Source of the DNA: Bartonella sp. A05
Lineage (GTDB): Bacteria > Pseudomonadota > Alphaproteobacteria > Rhizobiales > Rhizobiaceae
Assembly (NCBI RefSeq): GCF_026930145.1
Contig: NZ_JANHOJ010000004.1
Coordinates: 1 to 64,000, forward strand
DNA: 64,000 bases
Reading direction: 5' to 3'
Of this stretch, positions 11,301-55,917 are shown piece by piece; the first letter of the stretch is position 1, and each line of letters starts with the position of its first letter. The notes below the pieces were generated by a model. The model saw only the letters and a program-made list of their open reading frames with translations. It ran no database searches and was not told the DNA's origin. The position numbers and the translations under genes were made by a program.

Positions 11301-12542
11301 CATCGTATTAGCTATGGTGCACGTATCTTTGTTGATGATGGCGATATGGTAAAATGTGGTCAGCGTATTGCGGAATGGGATCCTTATACACGTCCAATTT
11401 TGACTGAGGTTGATGGTTATGTTGGTTTTGAAGATATGATTGATGGTTTATCAGTTACTGAGACAGCTGATGAATCTACAGGTATTACAAAACGTTTGGT
11501 GATCGATTGGCGTGCTAATCCACGGGGAGCTGATCTAAAACCAGCGATTGTTATTCACACAGACAAAGAGGGTGAGACCGTTGCCAAGTTGTACAAAGGC
11601 AGTGAAGCGCGTTACATGATGTCTGTGGATACTATTCTTTCCGTTGAGCCCGGTGCTTACGTTAAGGCGGGTGATGTTATTGCGCGCTTGCCAATGGAGA
11701 GCGCTAAGACCAAAGATATTACGGGCGGTTTGCCGCGTGTTGCTGAGCTTTTTGAAGCACGGCGTCCAAAGGATCATGCTATTATTGCTGAGATTAATGG
11801 TACAGTTCGATTTGGTCGTGGTTACAAGAATAAGCGCCGTATCATCATTGAACCGCATGATGAAACTCTCGAGCCAGTAGAATATCTCATTCCGAAAGGT
11901 AAGATGTTCCACTTTCAAGAGGGCGATCAGATTGAAAAAGGGGATTATATCCTTGATGGTAATCCAGCACCTCATGATATTTTGGCGATTAAAGGTGTTG
12001 AAGCTTTAGCTTCTTATCTTGTTAATGAAATTCAGGAAGTTTATCGTTTGCAGGGTGTTTTGATTAATGATAAGCACATTGAAGTGATTGTTCGTCAGAT
12101 GTTACAGAAGGTTGAAATTACTGAATCTGGGGATTCTGGTTATATTCCAGGTGACAATGTTGATCGCATTGAATTGGATGAAACGAATGATAATTTAATT
12201 GCAGAAGGTAAAAAACCTGCATCCGGTAATCCTATACTTCTGGGGATTACAAAGGCATCACTTCAGACGCCATCCTTTATCTCGGCCGCATCATTTCAGG
12301 AAACGACTCGGGTGCTTACTGAAGCAGCAGTTTCCGGAAAGATTGATACTTTGCAAGGGCTTAAGGAGAATGTTATTGTTGGCCGGCTTATTCCAGCGGG
12401 TACAGGTGGTACAATTGCTCAAATACGTCGTATTGCAACAATTCGTGACGATTTGATTTTGGATGAGCAACGCAAATCTAGCAATAATGAAACGGCTAAG
12501 GCGATGTTAGCGGATATGACAGCCGATGTAGCTGTTGAATAA
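8331..12542 (+). CDS. rpoC: DNA-directed RNA polymerase subunit beta'
   Basis: A 1403-residue beta' subunit of normal alphaproteobacterial length. I choose ATG 8331 (MNHEVMNLF) with AAGGAGA upstream, over the in-frame TTG at 8316. The N-terminal zinc site [19 protein letters not shown] is intact. The catalytic Mg-binding motif [15 protein letters not shown] is present. The second cysteine cluster ([16 protein letters not shown]) and the trigger-loop region ([19 protein letters not shown]) follow. The last gene of the rpoBC unit; a terminator follows. Confidence 0.98.
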
Positions 12543-12568
12543 CTTTAATATACATTGAAAAGAAATAT

Positions 12569-12602
12569 AAAAACGTCTAAAGAATATTTGGGCGTTTTTT
12601 TT
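12569..12602 (+). terminator. Rho-independent terminator after rpoC
   Basis: The stem AAAACGTCTAAA / TTTGGGCGTTTT (two G-U pairs) with a short AT loop runs into a T run. It lies 27 bases after the rpoC stop and ends the rpo operon. Confidence 0.75.
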
Positions 12603-13181
12603 AGTTTTGGAATGCAGAAATAGAAAATTTTTTCTGATAAGTAATTATAAAGCCTATAAAGGCGATTATCGCTTTAAGTAATTTTTGTAATTAGTTCTAT
12701 TCGATAAAGAGCCAAAAGTATTCCAAAATGGTCCAGAAAATAATGAGTTTTCAGGTGGGTAATCTTTATTCGTTTTTAGCCAATGGCTATTGATAGAATC
12801 TATGCTCATTAAAGATCATGAAATGATCTTTTGTTTATACAAGAAATGTAAGTTTTACTAAGCGATCAAAGAAGTTTCATATAATATTTTTAAGACGGAT
12901 GAAATTCTTAGTCTGATAAATAAGGTGATATTTATCTTTAAGTTTCTGGGGTGGTTATTTAGTATTTTAAGAATAGGTAGTGATAATAATGATATGATTG
13001 TAGGAAATAATTCTTAAATTTAAAAAAAGAAAAAATATAAAATTGCGTAAACATTTTTAAAATGTCATCAATGATTATAATAAGAAAATTATATTAACAT
13101 AATTTTTTGAAAAAGATTTATCTTATTAAAGATAAATATATTTTATAATGTTTCTTTTTCTATAAAGAGAAAGTAAAAATA
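12603..13181 (+). other. AT-rich spacer without a recognisable gene
   Basis: There is no reading frame of useful length and no family motif in any frame. One perfect hairpin, AAAGATCAT / ATGATCTTT with a GAA loop (12811-12831), is followed by TTGTTT and could be a second terminator. The last 150 bases are extremely AT-rich and probably contain the promoter of the following gene. Confidence 0.5.
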
Positions 13182-18009: not shown

Positions 18010-18335
18010 ATGCATAATGAAAATAGCAAGAATTGGGCTAAAGAGAGGCATGACGATGCGCTTATTATTCCCAAAGTTAAAAAGCTTAAGTTATATTGTG
18101 TTCTTTTACTGAACAATGATTATACGCCTAGGATTTTGTTGCTTTTGTTTTAAAAGAGCTTTTTTTAAAAAAATCGAAGAAGCGATGCAAATTATGTTAA
18201 ATGTTTATCAGAATGAGGTAGGTGAATGTGGTGTTTATATTTAATGAAGTAGCTGAGCTGAAAATTTTACAAGTTATGGAGTGTGCACGCAAAAATGAAC
18301 ATCCGTTACAATGTGTGTGGAGTAGAAATGAGGAA
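18010..18335 (+). pseudogene. clpS: Broken clpS (N-degron adaptor for ClpAP)
   Basis: Directly upstream of clpA, where clpS normally lies, ClpS motifs appear in several frames. KLKLYCVLLLNNDYTPR (about 18085-18132) corresponds to the usual LYRVLLLNDDYTPMEFV. After a frame change comes FKKIEEAMQIMLNVYQNEVG and GECGVYI followed by a stop at 18241. Then FNEVAELKILQVMECARKNE and HPLQCV lead up to the clpA start. At least one frameshift and an in-frame stop interrupt it. ClpS delivers N-end-rule substrates to ClpA, so that branch is probably lost. Confidence 0.88.
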
Positions 18336-18337
18336 TT

Positions 18338-20689
18338 ATGCCATCTTTTACGCCTAGTCTTGAAAAGGTTTTGCATCGTGCATTAACAATTGCTACTCAA
18401 GCGCAGCATGAATATGCGACATTAGAGCATCTTTTACTTGCCTTGTTGGATGATGCCGATGCAAGTTCAGTGATTCATGCCTGTCAGGTAGATTTGGAAG
18501 AATTACGAGAGCGTTTAACCAATTATATCCAATCAGAATTAAATACACAAATTAGAACTGGTGAGGATACGAAACCGACAGCGTTTTTTCAGCGTGTTAT
18601 TCAACGTGCAATAATTTATGCTCAATCAGCTGGAAAAGACGAAGTATCAGGAGCAAACATTCTTGTTGCGATTTTTTCTGAACGTGAAAGTTATGCAGCA
18701 TATTTCCTTCAAGAGATGGGGATGACACGCTATGACGCTGTGCGGTTCATTTCACACGGTATCGTACGTGATGATGAGTTATCTCAGTTTCTGGAAGATC
18801 TTGAAGAGCAATTAGGTCAACATGTTTCAAATCATAGTGAACGTGTGACAAGTGCGCTTGCTGCTTATTGTGTTGATCTGAATAGCAAGGCACGTAGTGG
18901 AAAAATTGATGTATTAATTGGCCGCGATGTGGAAATTTCACGTGTGGTACAGATTTTATGTCGGAGGTCAAAAAATAATCCACTTTTGGTTGGAGATCCT
19001 GGGGTTGGAAAAACAGCTATAATTGAAGGTTTGGCTAAACGCATTGTTGATGGGCAGGTTCCAGAAGTTTTATCAAATGCAATAATATTTTCTCTTGATA
19101 TGGGAGCACTTGTCGCTGGAACCCGCTACCGTGGTGATTTTGAAGAGCGGCTGAAGCAAGTTATTAAAGAATTTGAGCAATATCCTGATGCTGTTTTATT
19201 TATTGATGAAATTCATACATTGATTGGAGCGGGGGCTACATCGGGTGGCAATATGGATGCAGCGAATCTTTTAAAACCTGCGTTTTCATCAGGAGCTATT
19301 CGGTGTATTGGTTCAACGAGTTATAGAGAATATCGCAAGATTTTTGAACAAGATCATGCTTTGGAACGCCGTTTTCAGAAGATTGATATTAATGAGCCAT
19401 CTGTTGCCGATGCGATTAAAATTTTAAAAGGATTGAAACCTTATTTTGAAGATTTTCATCAAATTAAATATACTGATGAAGCAATAAAGGCATCAGTAGA
19501 GTTATCTTCGCGTTATATTGCCGCCCGCCGGTTGCCGGATAAGGCAATTGATGTTGTGGATGAAAGTGGTGCAGCGCAGATGCTATTGCCCAAAAAACAG
19601 CGAAAAAAGAGCATAGGTGTCAAAGAAATCGAAGCTACCATTGCAACTATGGCAAGGATTCCTTCAAAAACAGTCTCTGGCGATGACAAAAAGATGCTTG
19701 GCAATCTGGAGAAAGAGCTCAAGCGTGTTGTATATGGGCAAGATCAAGCTATTGCAGCATTGGCATCGTCGATTAAACTCGCACGAGCAGGATTGCGTGA
19801 ATCAGATAAGCCAATAGGGAGTTATTTATTTTCGGGACCAACTGGTGTTGGAAAAACTGAAGTAGCAAAACAACTCGCATCTTCTTTGGGTATTGAACTG
19901 CTCCGTTTTGATATGTCAGAATATATGGAACGACATACGGTGGCGCGTTTGATAGGGGCTCCTCCAGGTTATGTAGGCTTTGATCAGGGTGGTCTTCTCA
20001 CAGATGCTGTTGATCAAAAGCCTCATTCGATTGTGTTATTAGATGAGATTGAGAAAGCTCACCCAGAGTTGTTTAATATTTTATTACAGGTGATGGATTA
20101 CGGTAAATTAACCGATCATAATGGCAAGAAAATTGATTTCTGCAATACCATTTTAATTATGACAACCAATGCTGGTGCTGCAGATGCAGCAAAGCCGGCG
20201 ATGGGCTTTGGTAGAATGCATCGCAATAGTGAAGATATAGAAGTAATTAATCGGTTATTTACACCAGAATTCCGTAATCGGTTAGATGCTATCATTCCGT
20301 TTGCGCATTTGTCTCAGTTAATAATCCGTCAGATTGTACAAAAGTTTATTTTTCAGCTTGAAGCACAACTGATTGATCAAGGAATCAGTTTTGAATTAAG
20401 CACTTCCGCGATGGTATGGCTTGCCAAAAAAGGATATGATTTTCAGATGGGGGCACGTCCATTAGGGCGTTTAATACAAGAACAGATTAAAAAGCCGTTA
20501 GCTGATGAAATTTTATTTGGAAAGTTGCGTAATGGTGGCATGGTTCGTGTATTGATGCACGAACCAAATGGGGAAAGAGAGGGGTTGCAGTTAGAAATAT
20601 CATCTTCCAATATGTCTCCTCGTTCAAAGGAGAGTAAAGATAAGAGTTGTATAAAAAAATCTACGAGGAAAAAAACATCTGCTTCTTAA
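18338..20689 (+). CDS. clpA: ATP-dependent Clp protease ATP-binding subunit ClpA
   Basis: A 783-residue AAA+ unfoldase. The N-domain ([20 protein letters not shown]) is followed by the first AAA module with Walker [11 protein letters not shown] and Walker [15 protein letters not shown]. The second module has [15 protein letters not shown] and [20 protein letters not shown]. It feeds unfolded substrates to ClpP. The C-terminal tail is lysine/serine-rich ([20 protein letters not shown]). Start ATG 18338 has GAGGAATT upstream. It is intact although clpS just before it is broken, so its remaining substrates must be recognised without that adaptor. Confidence 0.96.
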
Positions 20690-25644: not shown

Positions 25645-26205
25645 ATGAATGTTACATCGATTATGGATGATCTGAAGCGTCGTATGGATGGTGCTATTTC
25701 GGCTTTTAAGCACGAGTTAAGTGGTTTGCGAACTGGGCGAGCATCAGCCAGTTTATTAGAGCCGTTGACAATTGAGGCTTATGGTTCGGTTGTGTCTATA
25801 AATCAGGTTGCTAATATTTCTGTTCCAGAACCGCGAATGCTTTCAGTTTCTGTTTGGGATAAAACGATGGTAGGAGCTGTTGAACGAGCTATTCGTGATT
25901 CTGGTCTTGGTTTAAATCCTATCAGAGATGGTATGAATTTGCGTATTCCTTTACCTGAATTGAATGAAGAACGCCGTAAGGAACTGGTAAAGATTGCGCA
26001 TCAATATGCGGAGCAAGCGCGTATTGCTACTCGCCATGTTCGTCGTGATGGTATGGATAATTTGAAGAAGTTAGAAAAAGAGGGCGAAATAAGTCAGGAT
26101 GAGTCCCATAGCTTGTCTGAGAAGGTTCAAAAACTCACGGATGAAACTATTGCGCATATTGATAAGATTTTGGTTATGAAAGAAGCTGAAATTATGCAAG
26201 TTTAA
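25645..26205 (+). CDS. frr: Ribosome recycling factor
   Basis: A 186-residue protein of standard length. It carries [55 protein letters not shown] and the C-terminal helix with [12 protein letters not shown]. With EF-G it splits post-termination ribosomes. In this gene order the next gene should be uppS, which here is a pseudogene. Confidence 0.98.
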
Positions 26206-26243
26206 GATTTTTTCTTGTTTTTTTGACAAAAAAATCTCATTTG

Positions 26244-26895
26244 CACCACATTATCGTTATTATGGATGAAGATTGATGATGGGCGCAGGTATGGTTCTAG
26301 CTCGTGTAGTTGAGCGTAAAGTTGGAATAAATGCGCTTCGGTGATTATATTATACAGAGAAGATTGGTTTAGAGTGGTGGGTGATTTTTGATTTTTGTCT
26401 CAAAATTGGACAAGGTTACCTACTAAAGTAAACCATTTGACGGGATTGTTAAAAGCTTTCGTTAAATATGATTTTTTGAGTTACGTAACAAGAATGTCTG
26501 TATTCACATTATTGACGATGGATCAAGTAGTTCTGGAGATATTTTAGAGGAGTTTATCAATAGAATAATGATAAATATTAATAATGGTCTTAGTCTTATT
26601 ATTGCTTCTAGTCATGGTAGGTACAAGAGGGTAAACTGGGTAGTGCATTGTTGTGTGCAATTGGTTTTAATTTATAAGCAGATTAACTGATAGTTTAGCA
26701 CAAATTGCTTTGATATTAAGCGCGTATCGAGTCCTAATTTAATTATTCGCACAAGTGGAGAATAGTGTTTTTTTTTATTTTATAGCAGGTGATAAATTTT
26801 GAATTGTATTTTTCTGTTTTTGCTCTGCTTTTTATAGATAAGTTTTTGAAGCGTTAAAGACTGATTATCGGTTTCGTGGGTGTCGCTTTAGTTTA
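26244..26895 (+). pseudogene. uppS: Broken uppS (undecaprenyl-diphosphate synthase)
   Basis: This is the expected place for uppS between frr and cdsA. Family motifs occur in order but in different frames. HHIIVIMDE (26244-26273) stands for HHIAIIMDGNGRWA and stops at once, losing the catalytic GNGRWA. LSQNWTRLPTKVNHLTGLL corresponds to FSSENWxRPxxEVxxLMxLL. NNGLSLIIASSHGRYK corresponds to the LxLxIAFNYGSR block. PNLIIRTSGE is followed by a stop. LKTDYRFRGCRF is the C-terminal DYxxRxRRFG. Several stops and frameshifts rule out a functional product. UppS makes the lipid carrier for peptidoglycan and O-antigen. Confidence 0.92.
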
Positions 26896-26985
26896 TTGAA
26901 GTCTGTGATAATTCTAAATGAGACACACAAAATATGAAGGTAAAACAATGTCGTGTTTTTCTTCTCTATTTTTTATTTTTTGGAG

Positions 26986-27807
26986 ATGCCTTTGTCTAAT
27001 CTTATTTCTCGCACTCTGACAGCCTTTGTTTTTGGCGCTATTACTTTGTATTTAACATGGGTTGGAGGCATTTTGTTTTTTTTGTTTGCATGGGGAATTG
27101 GTGGTTTTATTCTGTATGAGTGGGTTAGTATCACAAAAGAAAAGTGGCGTTTTTTACAAAAAATATTGGCTGGTATTTTTTATTTAATTTTTGGTTTGTT
27201 TTTGGTATCGGGCATATCAGCTTTATTGATTTTTGGTCTTTTGATTGTTTTTGCGGTTTTATTGGGTATGTTGTCTGTTAGAAATATTGGTTGGGTTTCT
27301 TTCGGTTTTTTATATGCTTCTTTTCCAGTTGTGGCTTTGTCTTTCTTGCGGGGTTATGAAATATTAGGATTCTGGGTGGTTATTTTTTTATTTACGATCG
27401 TGTGGGGAACAGATGTTGCTGCATACTTTAGTGGGCGCGCGCTTGGTGGTCGTAAATTAGCGCCCAGATTTTCTCCTAATAAAACGTGGTCAGGAGCGTT
27501 TGGTGGTACTGTTGCGGGAATTTTGGGTGGTATACTGGTTGCTCTTTTAGTTTTTGATATAAGTTCCACACTTTTTTTTGTGCTATTGCTTGCTTTTATT
27601 TTATCGGTGATTTCGCAGATAGGCGATCTAGGACAATCATGTTTAAAAAGGCGATTTTCTGTTAAAGATTCCGGTTATTTATTACCTGGACATGGTGGAT
27701 TTATGGATCGGATGGATGGATTGGTCGCTGCCGCTTTCCTTCTTTATTTAATTGGTGCGATTATATCTGGTGTGAATACACCTTTTAATTTTTTTACTAT
27801 GCTTTAA
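26986..27807 (+). CDS. cdsA: Phosphatidate cytidylyltransferase (CDP-diglyceride synthase)
   Basis: A 273-residue polytopic membrane protein with about eight hydrophobic segments. The C-terminal signature (QIGDLGQSCLKRRFSVKDSG, then LLPGHGGFMDRMDGL) is intact. FSPNKTWSGAFGGTVAG is the second conserved block. It makes CDP-diacylglycerol for all phospholipids. I place the start at ATG 26986 (MPLSNLISRTL); in-frame GTG 26953 and TTG 26980 are alternatives, and GGAG lies close to the ATG. It is intact although it sits between two groups of dead genes. No dxr follows it. Confidence 0.94.
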   Translation: MPLSNLISRTLTAFVFGAITLYLTWVGGILFFLFAWGIGGFILYEWVSITKEKWRFLQKILAGIFYLIFGLFLVSGISALLIFGLLIVFAVLLGMLSVRNIGWVSFGFLYASFPVVALSFLRGYEILGFWVVIFLFTIVWGTDVAAYFSGRALGGRKLAPRFSPNKTWSGAFGGTVAGILGGILVALLVFDISSTLFFVLLLAFILSVISQIGDLGQSCLKRRFSVKDSGYLLPGHGGFMDRMDGLVAAAFLLYLIGAIISGVNTPFNFFTML

Positions 27808-27828
27808 TCTAGGGGGGGAGGAAATATT

Positions 27829-28977
27829 TTGGAGCTTTTGAATTACATACTTGGCATAGGTGATTTATTTTTGAGAGGTTTGAGTATTGTTTTTATTATT
27901 GTGATTATTATCTTTGTTCACGAAATGGGGCATTATCTTGTTGGGAGATGGTGTGGTATTCAAGCATCAGTTTTTTCACTTGGATTTGGGCCACAAATAT
28001 TGAGTTATGTAGATAAGCGTGGTACACGGTGGCGTTTAGCGCTGTTTCTTCTAGGGGGATATGTAAGATTCAGTGAGGATGAGAGTGGTGCAGGTGTTCC
28101 ATCCTCGCGATCAATTTTGCTGATGTCTGGTTCCTTTGCGAATGCTCATGCTTGGAAAAGAGCGATAACTGTATTTGCTGGTCCTTTATTCAATGTTCTT
28201 TTTACCGTTGTTGTTTTGACATTTTTTTTCTTTTCTTATGGGCGTGTTGCTATTGAACCCGTTGTTGGTTCTTTGGTAGAAGATTCTCCTGCTATTCAGG
28301 CAGGATTAGTACGAGGTGATCGCTTTGTTGAAATGGATAGTAAACCTGTTACAAGTTTTGAAGATTTGATGGCTTATGTCACTTTTCGTGGCGGAAATCC
28401 CATAAAGTTTAAAATGGAGCGTATGGGGGAGATATTTAATACGGTCATCACGCCCGCGGTGATTGAGCGGGATGATGGGTTTGGCAATCGGATTCTAAGT
28501 GGTATGATTGGTGTGGGTGCACCGGTTGATCCTAATAATCCCATGCGTTTAGATCGTACTTATGCAAAATATATTAGCTATAATTTTTGGGAGGCGATAG
28601 AAGAAGCATCAGAACGCACAACATTTGTTATAACTCAAACAATTTTGTTTATTGGTCGTTTAATGAAAGGGCGAGAAGATCATTGTCAGTTAAGTGGCCC
28701 TTCTAAGACCGTTAAAATTGCTTGGCATGTTAGTGAATCGGGTTTTATCTCACTGTTGAATTTTATGGCTCTTCTTTCGATTGGCGTTGGACTCGTTAAT
28801 CTTCTGCCAATTCCACCACTTGATGGTGGATATTTATTATTTTATATTATTGAAGCTGCAGTAGGAAGACCAGTGCCAGATAAAATTCGGGAGGTTATTC
28901 TACATATGGGCCTTTTTGTTGTTCTCATATTTATGATTTTTGTGTTATTTAATGATTATTTTTGTTGGTTTCGCTAA
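27829..28977 (+). CDS. rseP: Site-2 intramembrane zinc metalloprotease RseP/MmpA family
   Basis: A 382-residue protein with the M50 zinc motif HEMGH at 31-35 within the first membrane helix, one PDZ domain (about 140-210: VVGSLVEDSPAIQAGLVRGDRF) and the third zinc-ligand motif NLLPIPPLDGG in the C-terminal membrane region. It starts at TTG 27829 with a very strong GGGGGGAGGA upstream. RseP cleaves membrane-bound regulators after first-site proteolysis. It lies 21 bases after cdsA and upstream of bamA, the usual envelope cluster order. Confidence 0.95.
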   Translation: MELLNYILGIGDLFLRGLSIVFIIVIIIFVHEMGHYLVGRWCGIQASVFSLGFGPQILSYVDKRGTRWRLALFLLGGYVRFSEDESGAGVPSSRSILLMSGSFANAHAWKRAITVFAGPLFNVLFTVVVLTFFFFSYGRVAIEPVVGSLVEDSPAIQAGLVRGDRFVEMDSKPVTSFEDLMAYVTFRGGNPIKFKMERMGEIFNTVITPAVIERDDGFGNRILSGMIGVGAPVDPNNPMRLDRTYAKYISYNFWEAIEEASERTTFVITQTILFIGRLMKGREDHCQLSGPSKTVKIAWHVSESGFISLLNFMALLSIGVGLVNLLPIPPLDGGYLLFYIIEAAVGRPVPDKIREVILHMGLFVVLIFMIFVLFNDYFCWFR

Positions 28978-29190
28978 TAAATCATGGAAAACATTTTGCA
29001 AATTAGATAATAATATGAGAATTCAAATTGGGAAGAGTCGTTTACTATATTCGCAGAATTTTGTGGTGTTGTACGCTATAATTAGTAATTAATATGAAGA
29101 GAAAATGGCAGTCTCATTTGAATAAAGTTGTTATGGCGGTTAACTTTTTGAGACATAGCGTCCAGAGAAATTAAATAAGGTAAAAAGCCA

Positions 29191-31587
29191 ATGACTACGA
29201 GTTCAAAATTTTTAAATGCAGTATCTGTATTGGTATTAGCCGTGACTGTAAATGTTTCAACAGCAGCTGTTATGTCAATTGCGGTGGTTGGAGAGGCTCA
29301 GGCATCTGTTGTTCGTTCTATTGAGATTCAGGGTAATAAGTTTATAAATTCTCGTGTAATTCGAGATAATGTAGCTATTAAGCCTGGAAAGAGTTTTAAT
29401 CGTAGCGATATTGATGCAGCAGTGAAAAATCTTTTTGGATTGGGTTTGTTTTATGATGTTAAAATAAATCAGGTAGGCAATAAGTTGATCGTAGCAGTCA
29501 AGGAGTATGAGGTCGTTAATCAAGTATTATTCAAAGGGAATAAATCTCTCAAAGATCATGATATTAAGCGTTTCATTTCTTTGAAAGAAAATGAACCTTT
29601 CAATTCTGCTAAGCTTTCAGCTGATATAAATATAATACGTGAAGCTTATAAAACTGTTGGCCGAAATAACGTTGTTATAACAACTCAGACTGTTGATTTA
29701 GGAAAAGGACGGGTCAATGTAGTCTTCAACATCTCTGAAGGTCAGAGGATGCAGATTACTGATATTACCTTTGAGGGGAATAATGCATTTGGGGCGCGCC
29801 GTTTACGCGATGTGATTGTAACAAAGCCTTCAGGAATATTTTCATTATTGATGAGAGGTGACGTTTATACTGAAGAACGTTTAGCTGTTGATGAAGAGGT
29901 TTTACGTCGTTTTTACTATAACCATGGTTATGCAGATTTTCGAATTATTTCATCTAAAGCAATTTTTGATGAAAGTAGGAATGCGTATAAAATCAGTTTC
30001 GTTTTTGATGAGGGAGCGCACTATAAAATTGGTGATGTTCGGGTTGAAAGCGATATTGATGGAGTGGATATTCAGTCTATAAAAAAGGCACTTAAAACGC
30101 ATCCGGGTGATGTTTATAGTGCAAGAGAAATTGAGGAATCTGTTGCGATTATTAATAGTAAAATTTCTGATTCTGGATATGCTTTTGCTAAGGTTGAGCC
30201 GCGAGGAAATCGTGATTTCAAGAATCATACAATTTCGCTTGTTTATAACATTGAGCGAGGGCCTCGAGCTTATGTTCAGCGGATTGAAATACGCGGGAAT
30301 ACAAAGACTCGTGATGATGTTATTCGCCGTGAAATTGATTTGAATGAAGGTGATGCTTACAATCAGACATTAGTGCAGCGAGCAAAAAGTCGACTAGAGG
30401 GTTTGGGCTTTTTCCGAGGAGTTAATATTTCCATGGTTCCCACTGATCAGCCTGATCAGGTCATATTGGTTATAGATGTAGTGGAAGCGCCAACAGGAGA
30501 TCTTTCTCTTTCTGGAGGTTATACAACAGGTGGTACGAGTCCTGGTATGTCATTTGAAGCGTCTGTTACTGAACATAATCTTGGAGGACGTGGTCAATAT
30601 GTCCGTTTGGGAGTGGGTGCTGGGCAAGGAAATTCCCGTAATTATAATTTTTCTTTTGTTAATCCTTATTTATTTGGTTATCGTTTATCTTCTGGTATTG
30701 ATATTTTTCGCAATACCTATCGTGTTGACGATGCGTATGATGTGAGGCAAACAGGCGGTTCCCTTCGATTTGGAATGCCAATTAGTGACAACGTATCCGC
30801 TAATGTGGCTTATTCTTATGTGCATGAAGAGTATGATTTTGGTGGGAATTATGACTTAACTGATGATGGAGTCAGGAAAGAATTATACGATAAATATTCT
30901 GGTGCGATTGTTCAGGCTGCAGAGCATCGTCCGTGGATACGTTCGTCAGTTAGTTTTGGTTTGACTTATAATTCTATCGACAATATGAGAAATCCGCATA
31001 ATGGTTTATACGCTCGCGTTGTTCAAGAATTTGCGGGGCTTGGTGGACATGCACAGTTCTTGAAAACAACTGGTAAGGCGATGATGTACAAGACGCTTTC
31101 TGATAGAATGGATCTTGTGGGCTTATTGTCTATTGGTGGTGGTTATATCCACGGATTAGGTAATGAAGGTCTCCGTATCTTTGATATGTTTAAAAGTAAC
31201 CTTGATATGATACGAGGGTTTAGATACAATGGGATAGGTCCACGTCAGCTTTCCAATAAAGGTGAAGTATATTTTGTAGGTGGTACAACATATACGAATG
31301 CAACTGCTGAAGTGCAGTTTCCTATACCAATAATACCTGATCATTTAGGTTTCCGTGGAGCTTTTTTTGCAGATGCTGCAACGCTTTCTGGTAATGATTA
31401 TAAGCCTGTTTTGAAGGATGAACCGCCGATTACAAATATTGGCAGTTCGTGGCGTACGTCTGCGGGTGCAAGCTTGCTATGGGATTCACCATTTGGTCCG
31501 TTACGTTTGGATTATGCTTGGCCGATACATAAACAAGAAGGTGATCAAGTACAGCAATTCAATTTTGGTATTTCTACTAAATTCTAA
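29191..31587 (+). CDS. bamA: Outer membrane protein assembly factor BamA
   Basis: A 798-residue Omp85 protein. A signal peptide (residues about 1-38, ending GEAQAS) is followed by five POTRA repeats (SIEIQGNKFINSRVIRDN; NQVLFKGNKSLKD; ITDITFEGNNAFGARRLRD; IGDVRVESDIDG; VQRIEIRGNTKTRDDVIRRE). A C-terminal 16-strand barrel begins near 440. The loop-6 motif is present as MIRGFRYNGIGP. The protein ends in phenylalanine (FNFGISTKF), the usual barrel signal. Its survival shows that an outer membrane with beta-barrel proteins is still built, although the adjacent lipid A genes are dead. Confidence 0.97.
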   Translation: MTTSSKFLNAVSVLVLAVTVNVSTAAVMSIAVVGEAQASVVRSIEIQGNKFINSRVIRDNVAIKPGKSFNRSDIDAAVKNLFGLGLFYDVKINQVGNKLIVAVKEYEVVNQVLFKGNKSLKDHDIKRFISLKENEPFNSAKLSADINIIREAYKTVGRNNVVITTQTVDLGKGRVNVVFNISEGQRMQITDITFEGNNAFGARRLRDVIVTKPSGIFSLLMRGDVYTEERLAVDEEVLRRFYYNHGYADFRIISSKAIFDESRNAYKISFVFDEGAHYKIGDVRVESDIDGVDIQSIKKALKTHPGDVYSAREIEESVAIINSKISDSGYAFAKVEPRGNRDFKNHTISLVYNIERGPRAYVQRIEIRGNTKTRDDVIRREIDLNEGDAYNQTLVQRAKSRLEGLGFFRGVNISMVPTDQPDQVILVIDVVEAPTGDLSLSGGYTTGGTSPGMSFEASVTEHNLGGRGQYVRLGVGAGQGNSRNYNFSFVNPYLFGYRLSSGIDIFRNTYRVDDAYDVRQTGGSLRFGMPISDNVSANVAYSYVHEEYDFGGNYDLTDDGVRKELYDKYSGAIVQAAEHRPWIRSSVSFGLTYNSIDNMRNPHNGLYARVVQEFAGLGGHAQFLKTTGKAMMYKTLSDRMDLVGLLSIGGGYIHGLGNEGLRIFDMFKSNLDMIRGFRYNGIGPRQLSNKGEVYFVGGTTYTNATAEVQFPIPIIPDHLGFRGAFFADAATLSGNDYKPVLKDEPPITNIGSSWRTSAGASLLWDSPFGPLRLDYAWPIHKQEGDQVQQFNFGISTKF

Positions 31588-31649
31588 TTTGAACTTTTTC
31601 AAAAAGGGATTTTTAATAAAGGGTTGAATTTATGCTGAGAGGCGTATTT

Positions 31650-32642
31650 TGATAACAAGTGTACTTTTCTTTGCGCCTATTGGCAATTAGCGCTTGATAA
31701 TGTTGCAGAATTAACGAGAGAAAAAATTCTTAATCCGGAATTTTCAGAGATTATAAATACTCTTTCTTCTGTTGAAAGCGTTGAGGAAAGAGTCTTTATT
31801 CTCGTGGATAAGGGAATTTTTATGCTTGATTTTAAAATTCTGTAATTGCTATTTTTTCGTTTATGATGCTGTTTTAAAGATTTATATTAGCCTTGGTGGT
31901 GATATTTATGCTGCCGCATAATTTTGCTCAAATCGGGCGCATTTTTATTTCCGTCTTCTGTTAAGTTATTGCCTTTGGTTGACCAAAAAGAAATTTCATC
32001 GCATAGCGTGTATTCATCCAAGCGATAAACTTGAATATAATGTGTGTATTGAAGCAGGTGCTATTATTGGTAGAGACGTTGAAATTGGTGTAGTTACTTT
32101 TATTTCATAGGCTGGTGTTATCGCTAAAATTGCTGGGCTTGAGTGTGAATGCTTTATTGCTTCTAGGATTATAATTCAATATTCTTTAATAGGCGGTAGG
32201 ATTCATCTTTACTCCGTATTTTTATCGGAGAGAGTGGTTTTTGTTACGTTTATAGCGTTTTTAGAGTTGAAAAAATCTACAGTTTTGTCGTGTAAATTAT
32301 CCAAAAAAGATGATGTAGAAATTAGCGCGAATATAACGATTGATTGCGGAGCATTTGAAGGTATAATTATTGCCGAAAGGAAAAAAATTGATAATTTGCT
32401 ACAGATCACTCATAATATGAGAAATCGTCGTTATTATCTTATTGTTACTTAATGCGGAAATGTCGAAGTTTTGGATCCTATCAAATAGGCAAATGTGTTC
32501 AGATTTCCGCGGGTAGTGGTGTTATGAATAATATTCCAGATGTTGAAAAATGGGACGGCAGTTTAGTACGACCATTGAAGAGTGGTTTCGTGAAGTCGCG
32601 GTTCTGTATGATATTAGCAAGGTGAAAGGGAGAAACATTAAT
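31650..32642 (+). pseudogene. lpxD: Broken lpxD (UDP-3-O-acylglucosamine N-acyltransferase)
   Basis: LpxD elements follow in order through several frames: LFFAPIGN near the start; AELTREKILNPEFSEIINTL; HPSDKLEYNVCIEAGAIIGR with VEIGVVTFIS and a stop; [76 protein letters not shown]; and [14 protein letters not shown] at the end. These match the hexapeptide-repeat core and C-terminal helix of LpxD. Many stops and frame changes, and loss of segments such as the catalytic GFGF region, show it is dead. LpxD adds the second acyl chain pair in lipid A synthesis. Confidence 0.93.
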
Positions 32643-33110
32643 ATGATCAGCACCATGGAAACGAAAAGTTTAGAAGCTGTAGATATTGATAAATTGTTAT
32701 CAGTATTACCGCACCGTTATCCATTTTTATTGATTGATCGTATCGTTGAAATTGACGGTGAGCAAAAAGCTGTAGGTATTAAGAATGTAACAATTAATGA
32801 ACCACATTTTATGGGTCATTTTCCTACAAAGCCGGTTATGCCTGGCGTTTTGATTTTAGAAGCTATGGCACAAACAGCGGGTACAATTTCACTTTTAAGA
32901 TTGGGTGATAAGAAAGCAAATTTAGTCTATCTGATGACTGTTGATAATGCGAAATTTCGCAAGCCAGTTGTGCCTGGTGATCAGTTAAGAATTCATGTTC
33001 AGCTATTAAAAAAGCGTTCTAGTGTTAGACGTTTTTTGTGTATTGCAGAGGTAGAAGGTGTCCGTGTTGCTGAGGCAGAGGTTTCTGCTATGATTGCCGA
33101 ATCAGAATAA
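32643..33110 (+). CDS. fabZ: 3-hydroxyacyl-[acyl-carrier-protein] dehydratase FabZ
   Basis: A 155-residue hot-dog-fold protein with the catalytic region [17 protein letters not shown] (His) and [19 protein letters not shown] (Glu). It dehydrates 3-hydroxyacyl-ACP in type II fatty acid synthesis and competes with lipid A synthesis for the C14 pool. The frame is open back to 32550, but those codons encode the LpxD C-terminal remnant, so I start at ATG 32643 (ATG 32655 is an alternative). Intact, between the dead lpxD and the dead lpxA. Confidence 0.96.
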
Positions 33111-33191
33111 ATGATGAAATAGGAATTTAGAAATTGTCTGACATATAAACTCATCCAACTTTCTTTGTGGAGAAGAGGGGGGGATAAAGTT

Positions 33192-33400
33192 TAATGCATC
33201 AGTAGAATTACTTTGTCACATTTGTTTGGAAGCTGTTGTTGATGATAGATGCAATTTTGGATACTGATTTGCGCAATAATAAATATGAGGGGAGCTATAT
33301 AACTCTGTCTATTAATAAAAGCTGTCTGATACAAGAAGTATAATAATGCATAGAGGTTCTGTGCTTCAATGTCGGTATGACAATTATTGTAATATTGTAA
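33192..33400 (+). pseudogene. lpxA: Remnant of lpxA (UDP-N-acetylglucosamine O-acyltransferase)
   Basis: Immediately after fabZ, where lpxA belongs, LpxA fragments appear. LCHICLEAVVDDRCNF (33209-33256) matches the N-terminal FCHISxEAVIGDxC block. In another frame DAILDTDLRNNKYEG (33248 onward) matches HAILGADPQNNKHEGG. SYITLSINKSCLIQEV then ends at a stop (33343), where TTLSIGKNCIIREGVTMHRG is expected. Just after, in other frames, are IMHRGS and NVGMTII. About 50 codons are missing inside and everything after is gone. LpxA catalyses the first step of lipid A synthesis. Confidence 0.87.
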
Positions 33401-33447
33401 CGATAATTTCCAATTTTTTATTGTATGCAGATCGTATATAATGGTCA

Positions 33448-33669
33448 TTTAATGATAAGCCTTCTTGTTCCAGAATATTTTGATGAATTTTGGCGCTCTA
33501 ATACATTTGCAAGGCAAAAGCCATTTTTGCATAATCATTTGATAATCCAATTTTTGAGGTTTTTGATATGATGGAAAAGAAAGTGACAACCAAATTGCCA
33601 GAAGGCCGTAATGGTTGTTTGAACGATCGCAAATTCTTTCAAAAAATATCAAGTCACTCGGAATTATAG
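33448..33669 (+). pseudogene. lpxB: Remnant of the lpxB 3' end (lipid-A-disaccharide synthase)
   Basis: The frame from 33452 reads MISLLVPEYFDEFW, like the VPExxQ-type segment near the LpxB C-terminus. After a frame change comes IFEVFDMMEKKVTTKLPEGR (about 33548-33610), the kind of C-terminal helix that ends LpxB, and a stop at 33667-33669. Only the last quarter survives. The gene expected between lpxA and lpxB has vanished, since only about 50 bases separate the two scars. The assignment rests on position plus these short motifs, so it is weaker than for lpxD and lpxA. Confidence 0.68.
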
Positions 33670-33687
33670 ATAAAATAATATCGATAA

Positions 33688-34467
33688 TTAATGTTTAATT
33701 TTAGCAAGGAAATCGCGAGCGCGTTGACTTTTAGGATTTGTAAAAAATATATCAGATGTCGTATCTTCGATAATTTTTCCATTTTCTAGAAAGAGTATTC
33801 TTTTTGAAACTTCGCGAGCAAAACCCATTTCATGGGTAACACAGAGCATTGTGATCCCTGTATTTGCTAGTTGAACTATAACATCCAAAACTTCTCCTAC
33901 ACTTTCTGGGTCAAGAGCTGATGTTGGTTCATCAAAAAGCATCACTTCAGGTTCCATACAAAGTGCGCGTGCAATAGCAACACGTTGTTGTTGTCCTCCA
34001 GAGAGTTGTAGAGGATATTTTTCAGAGTATTTTTCGATACCCACATGAGCAAGATAACGAATTGCTCGTTCTTGTGCTTGTTGTTTGGAAAGCCCTTGGA
34101 CTGTTATAGGTGCTAAAATACAATTTTCCATAACAGTCATATGTGGAAATAAATTAAAGTTTTGAAAAACCATTCCTATTTTGCGGAGAACATTTTGTTG
34201 CTGTTTTATAGGGGCAGTGTAAATATCAACATTATGAACGCAGATTGAACCTTCTTGTGCTTGTTCTAATTGATTGATGCAACGAATTAAGGTCGATTTT
34301 CCTGATCCTGAAGGGCCACAAATAACAATGCGCTCACCAGCGTTTATGTTGAAATTAATATCATGTAATACTCGAGAACTCCCATACCATTTATTTAAAT
34401 TCCTAATAGAGATAACCAGGTTTTTAGTCGTATCGATAGACTTATTATGTATATTTTCAGGATTCAT
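33688..34467 (-). CDS. Polar amino acid ABC transporter, ATP-binding protein
   Basis: A 259-residue ATPase of the GlnQ/HisP class. Walker A is [15 protein letters not shown], the ABC signature [15 protein letters not shown], Walker [14 protein letters not shown], and the H-loop VTHEMGFA. It is the last gene of a four-gene operon on the minus strand (binding protein, two permeases, ATPase). It abuts the lpxB remnant, with its stop about 20 bases from the scar. Confidence 0.95.
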
Positions 34468-47026: not shown

Positions 47027-48385
47027 ATGATGCGAAAATGGACGCCTGACTCGTGGAGAGAAAGGCCAATTGAACAAGTCCCAGCTTACCCAGATCAGTC
47101 TATGTTAGCGAGTGTTGAAGGAAAGCTGCGCAAGTATCCTCCACTTGTTTTTGCTGGTGAAGTGCGTGATTTGAAAAATGCATTAACAGCAGTTACAGAG
47201 GGGCAGGCGTTTTTGTTGCAAGGTGGTGATTGCGCAGAAAGCTTTGCGGAACACGAAGCTGATAATATCCGAGATTTTTTTCGTGTATTTTTGCAAATGG
47301 CAATAGTTTTAACATTTGGTAGTTTTAAACCAGTTGTTAAAGTTGGTCGTATTGCTGGTCAGTTTGCAAAACCTCGTTCCTCTGAGGTTGAAAGTAAGGG
47401 GAATGAAGAATTGCCTGCTTATAGAGGCGATATTATTAATGGTATTGAATTTAATAAAGATTCTCGTATTCCTGATCCACGACGGATGTTTATGGCTTAT
47501 CGCCAGTCTGCAGCGACACTTAATTTGCTGCGTGCTTTTTCACAGGGAGGCTATGCTAATTTAGAAAATATCCATAAATGGATGCTGGGTTTCATTTCCA
47601 ATAGCCCACAAGGTGAACGTTATGTGTTATTAGCAAAGCGTATTTCTGAAACCATAGATTTTATGCGTTCTATAGGAATTACAGCTAAAACGCATTCTTC
47701 ATTACGTGAGACATCTTTCTATACAAGTCACGAGGCGCTTTTGCTTGGTTATGAAGAGGCTTTGACACGAGTTGATTCAACTTCTGGGGATTGGTATGCA
47801 ACATCTGGTCATATGTTATGGATTGGTGATCGTACGCGTCAGCCTGATCATGCGCATGTTGAATATTGTCGCGGTATTCAAAATCCTATCGGATTGAAAT
47901 GTAGCCCTTTCATGGATCCTGAAGAGCTTTTGCGACTCATTGATATTCTTAATCCTGAAAATGAACCGGGGCGGATTATCCTTATTGTTCGTTTTGGTTA
48001 TGATAAGATTAAGCATTGTCTTCCTAGACTAATCCGCGTAGTTGAGCGTGAGAAGCGTAAAGTTGTATGGTCTTGTGATCCAATGCATGGCAATACAGTT
48101 ATTGCAAATGGTTATAAAACGCGCCCCTTTGAATATATCTTGAAAGAAGTTGAACATTTTTTTTCGATACATCGAGATGAGGGAACTTATCCAGGTGGTA
48201 TCCATATTGAGATGACAGGCCGTAATGTGACTGAATGCACAGGTGGAGCGCACGCTATTTCAGTAGAAGATCTTTCTGATCGTTATCATACCCATTGTGA
48301 TCCGCGCCTGAATGCAGATCAGTCGTTGGAATTAGCTTTTCTTGTTGCTGAGCTTCTTAAGAAGAATCGTGATTCTGAACTGTGA
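47027..48385 (+). CDS. aroG: 3-deoxy-7-phosphoheptulonate synthase, class II
   Basis: A 452-residue class II (plant-type) DAHP synthase, the first enzyme of the shikimate pathway, joining phosphoenolpyruvate and erythrose 4-phosphate. Landmarks are [50 protein letters not shown] and, near the C-terminus, [10 protein letters not shown] and [19 protein letters not shown]. These include the metal-binding Cys, His, Glu and Asp residues. Two in-frame ATG codons begin the frame (47027 and 47030). It lies 76 bases after gor. Confidence 0.96.
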
Positions 48386-54981: not shown

Positions 54982-55917
54982 TTATCTTTTCATTAAAATG
55001 CTCATACTTTCTAAGGGGCTTTTGCCTTGAATGATTTTTTGAACTTCTGTAGCAATAGGGGTATAGATACCTTCTCTTTGAGCAATTTGAGTAATTGCCT
55101 GACAAGTTTTAATACCTTCAGCCACTTCGCCTAAATCGTTTAAAATCTTCTCCAAAAGCTTATTTTGAGCAAGTTCAAATCCAACGCGATAGTTTCTAGA
55201 AAGAAGGGAATTCGCTGTTAGAAATAGATCGCCCGCACCAGAAAGTCCTAGGAAAGTTTGCATTTTTGCGCCAAAATATTCCCCAAAGTGGCACATTTCA
55301 ACAAGTCCACGCGATAAAAGAGAGGCTTTAGCATTCTGACCCAATTTCAGCCCATCGCAGATTCCTCCTGCTATGGCGATGACATTTTTATACGCACCTG
55401 CTATTTCTCCACCGATTATATCGTTTTCAATGTAGGGTTTGATAAAGGTAGGCATCCTACTTGCAAATTCTTGAGCAAGAGTTGAATTGCACGAATGAAT
55501 CACTAAGGCACATGGAAGCTCTAAAATAATTTCTTTTGCAAAACTTGGGCCTGCCAAAAAACAGAGATTTTCTGGAGCAATGAAATTCTTGGCGATTTTG
55601 CTTACAAATGCCTTTGTCTCTTCCTCGATTCCTTTACTTGCGATGAGTATTTTTGATTTTTGGCTCAGACGTACGCGAATAAACCATTCTCTTAAAGCTT
55701 GAACACTGATAGTGATAATGAAAAGTTGAGAATCTAAACTCTCTTCCAAAGAACATTGCGAAATAATGGGCTGAGAATTTTTATTCAAAGCTTTATTTAA
55801 AGGTTCTAGAGCAGAGGCGATGTTGCGTCTTGAAACAATTCGAACTTCGTTTTTTTGCGCAAAAGCAAAAGCAAGAGCTTTTCCCCAGGCACCACCGCCA
55901 AAAATTGTTATTTTCAT
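54982..55917 (-). CDS. gpsA: Glycerol-3-phosphate dehydrogenase [NAD(P)+]
   Basis: A 311-residue soluble dehydrogenase that makes sn-glycerol 3-phosphate for phospholipids. The nucleotide-binding motif is [42 protein letters not shown], the catalytic lysine region [18 protein letters not shown] and [21 protein letters not shown] are all intact. It is slightly shorter than many homologues, with the end at [16 protein letters not shown]. Confidence 0.96.

Follow-up and report, generated by a model that had tools for sequence, protein, structure and literature searches.

Can a member of the genus Bartonella dispense with lipid A and still keep an outer membrane? This question is raised by an envelope gene block of Bartonella sp. 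A05 (RefSeq assembly GCF_026930145.1), which lies in the first 64,000 nt of contig NZ_JANHOJ010000004.1, the whole stretch analyzed here and called the window. A first-pass annotation, made from the sequence letters, had described scars of uppS, lpxD, lpxA and lpxB in their usual order among intact cdsA, rseP, bamA and fabZ, and had proposed that selection had ended for lipid A and for uppS but continued for the neighbours. Searches with nhmmer and tblastn confirmed this arrangement and added lpxI, which had not been mentioned, to the losses. Over the whole genome, the broken steps of lipid A synthesis are those of two acyltransferases (LpxA and LpxD), the committed deacetylase (LpxC), LpxI, LpxB, the LpxK kinase and the 3-deoxy-D-manno-oct-2-ulosonic acid (Kdo) transferase (WaaA); the LptF-LptG-LptD exporter is broken as well. 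The genes for lipopolysaccharide (LPS) biosynthesis and export are broken or deleted at five places, those of the β-barrel assembly machinery (BAM) and of peptidoglycan synthesis are open, and the outer membrane predicted for this lineage very probably lacks lipid A.

The A05 genome (G000) comprises 1,559,146 bases on 19 contigs, with a completeness of 99.98 and a contamination of 0. It was compared within a set of 71 Bartonella genomes, and the 70 others were all searched for LpxC and LpxB. Profile searches for WaaA, LptD, the LpxA C-terminal domain and MraY covered 21 sampled genomes, and the syntenic block was fetched from 39 relatives. The genome G062 represents the sister lineage, and G004 served as a further reference.

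Scars and intact genes in the envelope block

In all 39 relatives the block has the order frr, cdsA, rseP, bamA, lpxD, fabZ, lpxA, lpxI, lpxB on one strand. Their open reading frames span 296–350 aa for lpxD (the only short one, of 296 aa as extracted, is that of G058), 264–275 aa for lpxA, 288–291 aa for lpxI and 387–403 aa for lpxB. DNA profiles built from these intact genes were run with nhmmer against the 64 kb window, and tblastn was used in addition. In A05, the lpxD scar (31662–32636, plus strand, as are all block features below unless stated) matched positions 11–1042 of its profile with an E-value of 3e-152, and tblastn resolved it into four pieces in three frames with six stops. Of lpxA only the 5′ half is left (33135–33434), recovered as two nhmmer matches (33135–33257, E 3e-11; 33249–33434, E 5e-16) and as two tblastn pieces in two frames, without a stop within the pieces. 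It ends at a joint (about 33434–33453) left by a deletion of the 3′ half of lpxA, all of lpxI and the greater part of lpxB; nothing in the window matched the lpxI profile above noise. About 200 bp from the end of lpxB follow (33453–33649; profile positions 960–1161, E 2e-20), a single tblastn piece with four stops. The uppS scar lies upstream (26226–26899; E 1e-62) and consists of three pieces in three frames with six stops. Elsewhere in the window, the best match of the uppS, lpxD, lpxA and lpxB profiles reached an E-value of only 0.006.

The neighbours are intact, and cdsA, rseP, bamA, fabZ, frr and pyrH are all full-length open frames. On the left the block is anchored by frr (25645–26205; Pfam RRF; 89% aa identity to G004). 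The phosphatidate cytidylyltransferase gene cdsA (26953–27807, with a start possibly further in, near 26977–26989) shares 68% aa identity with G004; its NCBIfam phosphatidate cytidylyltransferase match is below the cut-off of that model, and its constraint is like that of the sister G062. Matches above the NCBIfam cut-offs were obtained for rseP (27829–28977; TIGR00054), for bamA (29191–31587; TIGR03303, 728.7 bits), the constraint of which is also like that in G062, and for fabZ (32643–33110; TIGR01750; nhmmer E 4e-144). An intact amino-acid ABC transporter ATPase gene on the minus strand (33688–34467), an open frame with its best match to a GlnQ model, below cut-off, forms the right anchor.

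Constraint was quantified as mismatch, per codon position, at alignment columns in which 90% or more of the relatives agree (uppS references n = 5, lpxC n = 7). In the A05 scars, mismatch at first and second positions was 25% and 21% for lpxD (65/264 and 59/287, versus 0.06 and 0.03 in G062), 26% and 30% for lpxA, 19% and 20% for lpxB, 18% and 21% for lpxC, and 32% and 24% for uppS. The same genes in G062 showed 3–6% and 2–5%. In the retained genes pyrH, frr, cdsA, rseP, bamA and fabZ of A05, the values were 1–8% and 0–4%; for frr they were 0.02, 0.01 and 0.08 at the three codon positions. Five of these six genes had a G062 control and did not exceed it, while rseP had none, as the G062 frame was too short. 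At these levels, the scars are no longer constrained and their neighbours still are, as had been proposed.

A FastTree phylogeny was computed from six concatenated block proteins, with some cdsA and rseP frames shortened by extraction. It included 36 ingroup genomes with A05 among them, and G003, G008, G023 and G030 as outgroups. A05 paired with G062 with a support of 0.995. This pair is nested in a clade of 8 genomes (support 0.09) and in one of 29 (1.0), all supports being those after re-rooting, and only the pair itself was relied on. The root-to-tip length of A05 was 0.551, inside the range of the other 35 ingroup genomes (0.465–0.636), and thus the examined core genes are not fast-evolving. 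The first-pass annotation had spoken of a "Bartonella-like" bacterium. The affinity stands, but the wording was too cautious, because genome comparison and the citrate synthase GltA (84–87% identity with five named Bartonella) identify A05 as a true Bartonella. Its RseP forms a singleton cluster, and the nearest other protein is 72% identical (among the best 120 of 3100).

The rest of the lipopolysaccharide pathway

Further losses lie outside the block. LpxC is above the cut-off of its family profile in 70 of the 71 genomes, and A05 has only a 20.2-bit remnant with 5 stops. LpxB (PF02684) is likewise found in 70 of 71, with no match in A05, and LpxK in 69 of 71, missing in A05 and in G032. WaaA, LptD (PF04453) and the LpxA C-terminal domain (PF13720) were each found in 20 of the 21 sampled genomes and are missing only in A05. 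The first-pass annotation had named intact second copies elsewhere as the observation that would speak against its prediction; none was found for LpxA, LpxB, LpxC, LpxK, WaaA or LptD in the whole A05 genome. As an observation on another genome, G032 has no LpxK match, yet LpxC and LpxB are present, which may be a second break of the pathway in the genus or an assembly gap.

The places of these genes could be inspected by synteny. Between ftsZ and bamD, both intact, tblastn detected lpxC as four pieces spread over three frames. Between suhB and mutL, 3047 bp of sister DNA with waaA and lpxK have shrunk to 288 bp, and neither gene left a tblastn trace within this remnant. At the lptF-lptG-lptD locus, 150 bp stand in place of 3711 bp of G004; one piece of lptF and one of lptD remain, beside which surA (named by position), pdxA and ksgA are open. 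In Rhizobiales, the acpXL-lpxXL cluster is responsible for both the synthesis and the attachment of the very-long-chain fatty acid of lipid A. In A05 its place is 2 kb past the window (contig C14, 66096–66892); acpXL and lpxXL are scars, the intervening genes for two ketoacyl synthases and a dehydrogenase are gone, and the remnants are flanked by an intact malic enzyme gene and mazG. The five places are thus distributed over four contigs (C14 twice, C13, C1 and C12).

Within the affected blocks, cdsA, rseP, bamA, fabZ, ftsZ, bamD, murC, mutL, pdxA and ksgA are open. BamA and BamD both exceed their family cut-offs. The peptidoglycan and division genes mraY, murD, ftsW, murG, murC, murB, ddl, ftsQ, ftsA and ftsZ are open with family matches; ftsW is just below its cut-off (328.5 versus 337.5 bits), ftsQ was identified by Pfam, and the other eight are above cut-off.

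A predicted outer membrane without lipid A and the alternatives

Judged from the genes, A05 has undergone a focused loss of LPS that most likely gave an outer membrane without lipid A. We hypothesize that selection for lipid A ceased in this lineage and that the whole route then decayed together, so that lipid A would no longer be produced. Losses late in the route may have become tolerable once the first steps were lost, because intermediates would no longer accumulate; PMC4985137 deals with toxic intermediates in Acinetobacter. The outer membrane itself probably persists, because bamA is constrained and bamD is open. Its outer leaflet would probably consist of phospholipid, with or without a substitute lipid, and the membrane would be held by BAM-assembled proteins and the retained peptidoglycan wall. 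Evasion of lipid A recognition in an arthropod or mammalian host is a plausible, if speculative, reason for the loss.

Several points weigh against this interpretation. The loss is seen in a single genome, with no second isolate or assembly to replicate it, and the lpxA and lpxB remnants are short. The genome-wide search covered LpxA, LpxB, LpxC, LpxK, WaaA and LptD; outside it lie second copies of lpxD, lpxI, lptF, lptG, acpXL and lpxXL, as well as kdsA, kdsB, msbA, lptA, lptB and lptC, some of which may be intact. No substitute-lipid pathway was identified, and no search was aimed at one. Furthermore, a polysaccharide-kinase-like gene, a MerR regulator gene and clpS have been disrupted or lost too, and the decay is therefore strongly focused on lipid A but not exclusive to it.

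These three additional losses, together with the broken uppS and the small genome of 1.56 Mb, would also fit an obligate arthropod symbiont whose genome is decaying throughout, with the scars as one sign among others and no focus on LPS. However, of the 49 G062 open reading frames in the syntenic stretch that are 100 aa or longer, 42 are open in A05, and the seven broken or absent ones are lpxD, lpxA, lpxI, lpxB, uppS, clpS and the MerR regulator gene. That all four lipid A genes of the stretch are among them has a hypergeometric probability of 35/211876, or about 2e-4 (calculated by hand and post hoc). In addition, the retained genes are constrained like those of G062, the root-to-tip length is average, and several relatives with genomes of 1.4–1.6 Mb keep LpxC and LpxB. 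Two traits of Wolbachia-type reductive endosymbionts are absent: core-gene evolution is not accelerated, and the peptidoglycan genes are not lost or reduced, though uppS is lost. General decay is thus an unlikely explanation. An artefact of assembly, base calling or contamination might be feared with a draft of 19 contigs, but it was rejected as practically negligible. The breaks are spread over four contigs and five places, of which three show kilobase-scale deletions with intact genes on either side; contamination is 0 at a completeness of 99.98, and a divergence of about 20–30% at conserved sites cannot be sequencing error. It is also very improbable that lipid A is still made by an unlisted second route or taken up from a neighbour. 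The genes outside the genome-wide search, among them a second lpxD, msbA, kdsA, kdsB and lptA, lptB and lptC, leave some room for this, but LpxC, LpxA, LpxB, LpxK, WaaA and LptD have no intact match in the genome, and lptF-lptG-lptD is deleted at its syntenic place.

A further alternative concerns what would have taken the place of lipid A. Sphingomonas and Caulobacter are alphaproteobacteria. As with the sphingolipids of Sphingomonas and of lipid A-free Caulobacter, precedents discussed in PMC10964400, another anionic lipid or glycolipid might have replaced lipid A in the outer leaflet. We regard this as a minority possibility, as no sphingolipid gene or other substitute gene was identified in A05, where no search for such genes was made. 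More generally, lipid A has been found to be dispensable in laboratory mutants of Acinetobacter baumannii and of Caulobacter crescentus without fur, and in Sphingomonas, and lipid A-free outer membranes are aided by cell-wall changes or sphingolipids (PMC10964400). In those cases either the strain is a mutant or the substitute lipid of the lineage is known, whereas the loss in A05 would be natural, with no substitute identified.

Natural loss of lipid A is already known as a kind. According to an excerpt of PMC3087551, Wolbachia and other Anaplasmataceae (Anaplasma, Ehrlichia) are devoid of the genes for Kdo2-lipid A, in line with the parallel drawn by the first-pass annotation to these arthropod-associated bacteria; there the loss is interpreted as a way to avoid host defence and is placed in the ancestor of the obligate intracellular family. 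A05 is likewise an alphaproteobacterium, and its lipid A pathway is broken. In contrast to that family-wide ancestral loss, it is one lineage in a genus in which 70 of the 70 others searched keep LpxC, and it has recognizable scars, mraY with the mur and fts genes, and an average core-gene rate. 'Candidatus Liberibacter americanus', a reduced, psyllid-borne bacterium of the Rhizobiales (order: PMC3158068), has lost almost all LPS genes (review PMC8999863; both in excerpt). It resembles A05 in being a member of the Rhizobiales with LPS gene loss, but it is a plant pathogen. The A05 case is deep within Bartonella, where each loss can be compared with 39 syntenic relatives. Neither a lipid A-free Bartonella nor a loss of uppS in Bartonella was among the matches listed (titles and beginnings of abstracts in the open literature, with most subscription papers and bioRxiv outside it), and the excerpts of PMC11983613, PMC12661939, PMC10949449, PMC9680903 and PMC3610622 contain no passage on either. 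A member of Bartonella with such scars and with retained mraY, mur and fts genes, as A05 appears to be, was not found among these matches.

A05 offers a natural loss with still readable scars, 70 genomes of the same genus that carry lipid A genes, syntenic relatives for comparison, and healthy-looking core genes. The order of lipid A loss and the changes that permitted it can therefore be tested by comparison. If the interpretation as a lipid A-free lineage is true, immune recognition would be expected to be altered, and endotoxin-based tests would miss the lineage.

uppS and other losses

For uppS, the proposal that selection has ended holds for A05, in which PF01255 (UppS) has no match anywhere in the genome, but it is not specific to this lineage. 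Only 15 of the 71 Bartonella genomes have a PF01255 match (that of G030 in two pieces, one with stops), and 56 have none; in a control set the profile matched 14 of 14. In the gap between frr and cdsA of the 39 relatives, uppS is open in five and in two pieces in one more. Among the 36 ingroup genomes, only G062 and G004 have kept it, at its ancestral place, and the intact gene of the sister G062 thus occupies the position of the A05 scar. The relics in this gap differ in clarity: the E-value is 5e-63 in A05, 7e-47 to 4e-52 in G028, G045, G054 and G057, and 2e-4 to 7e-12 in nine further genomes, and in twenty none is detectable. Together with the sister pair of A05 and G062, these differences suggest at least two losses of uppS, and four on the tree as drawn. 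The idea that uppS fell as part of the lipid A erosion was rejected, as 56 of 71 genomes are without PF01255 while 70 of 71 keep LpxC. As far as gene content tells, the uppS loss is a separate, repeated event of a kind common to most of the genus.

How most Bartonella obtain the lipid carrier of peptidoglycan synthesis is therefore a second question, as 56 of the 71 genomes show no known enzyme for it. MraY was found in 20 of the 21 sampled genomes, and the one miss is a genome of 85% completeness. Two full-length trans-prenyl synthases (PF00348) are present in all 71 genomes, with additional, partial pieces in G021, G039 and G064. Replacement of UppS by an extra trans-prenyl synthase was considered and is unsupported, the number of full-length enzymes being two regardless of the state of uppS. 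With UppS mostly gone, MraY kept and just two trans-prenyl synthases, the carrier would have to be made or supplied otherwise, or the cis enzyme would have been replaced by one invisible to the profile. UppS, the undecaprenyl pyrophosphate synthase, produces the undecaprenyl carrier and is supposed to be indispensable. It is conceivable, though rather doubtful, that most Bartonella dispense with it and build peptidoglycan on a non-canonical carrier, and that the A05 lineage, being also without LPS, is a diderm that lacks both lipid A and the canonical carrier synthase. Tentative candidates for such a carrier would be a polyprenol obtained from the host or an all-trans polyprenyl phosphate made by the long-chain prenyl synthase of the bacterium itself.

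Other observations on A05 and G062 concern places outside the envelope block. Two frames of the window (47027–48385, a class-II 3-deoxy-D-arabino-heptulosonate 7-phosphate (DAHP) synthase, and 54982–55917) were not covered by tblastn from the syntenic open reading frames of G062, in which their copies may sit elsewhere or be absent. A 590-aa gene of G062 with weak EpsF/EpsG-type matches, similar to polysaccharide chain-length kinases, is missing at the corresponding place (G000:C14:77657-78446), where only a doubtful trace is seen. The window contains no match to the MerR-type regulator gene of G062 (L167:15587-15973), the place of which would be at 12540–13181. The gene for the ClpP adaptor ClpS, intact in G062, is a scar at 18010–18317, closely followed downstream by a ClpA-type AAA gene that is intact (18338–20683).

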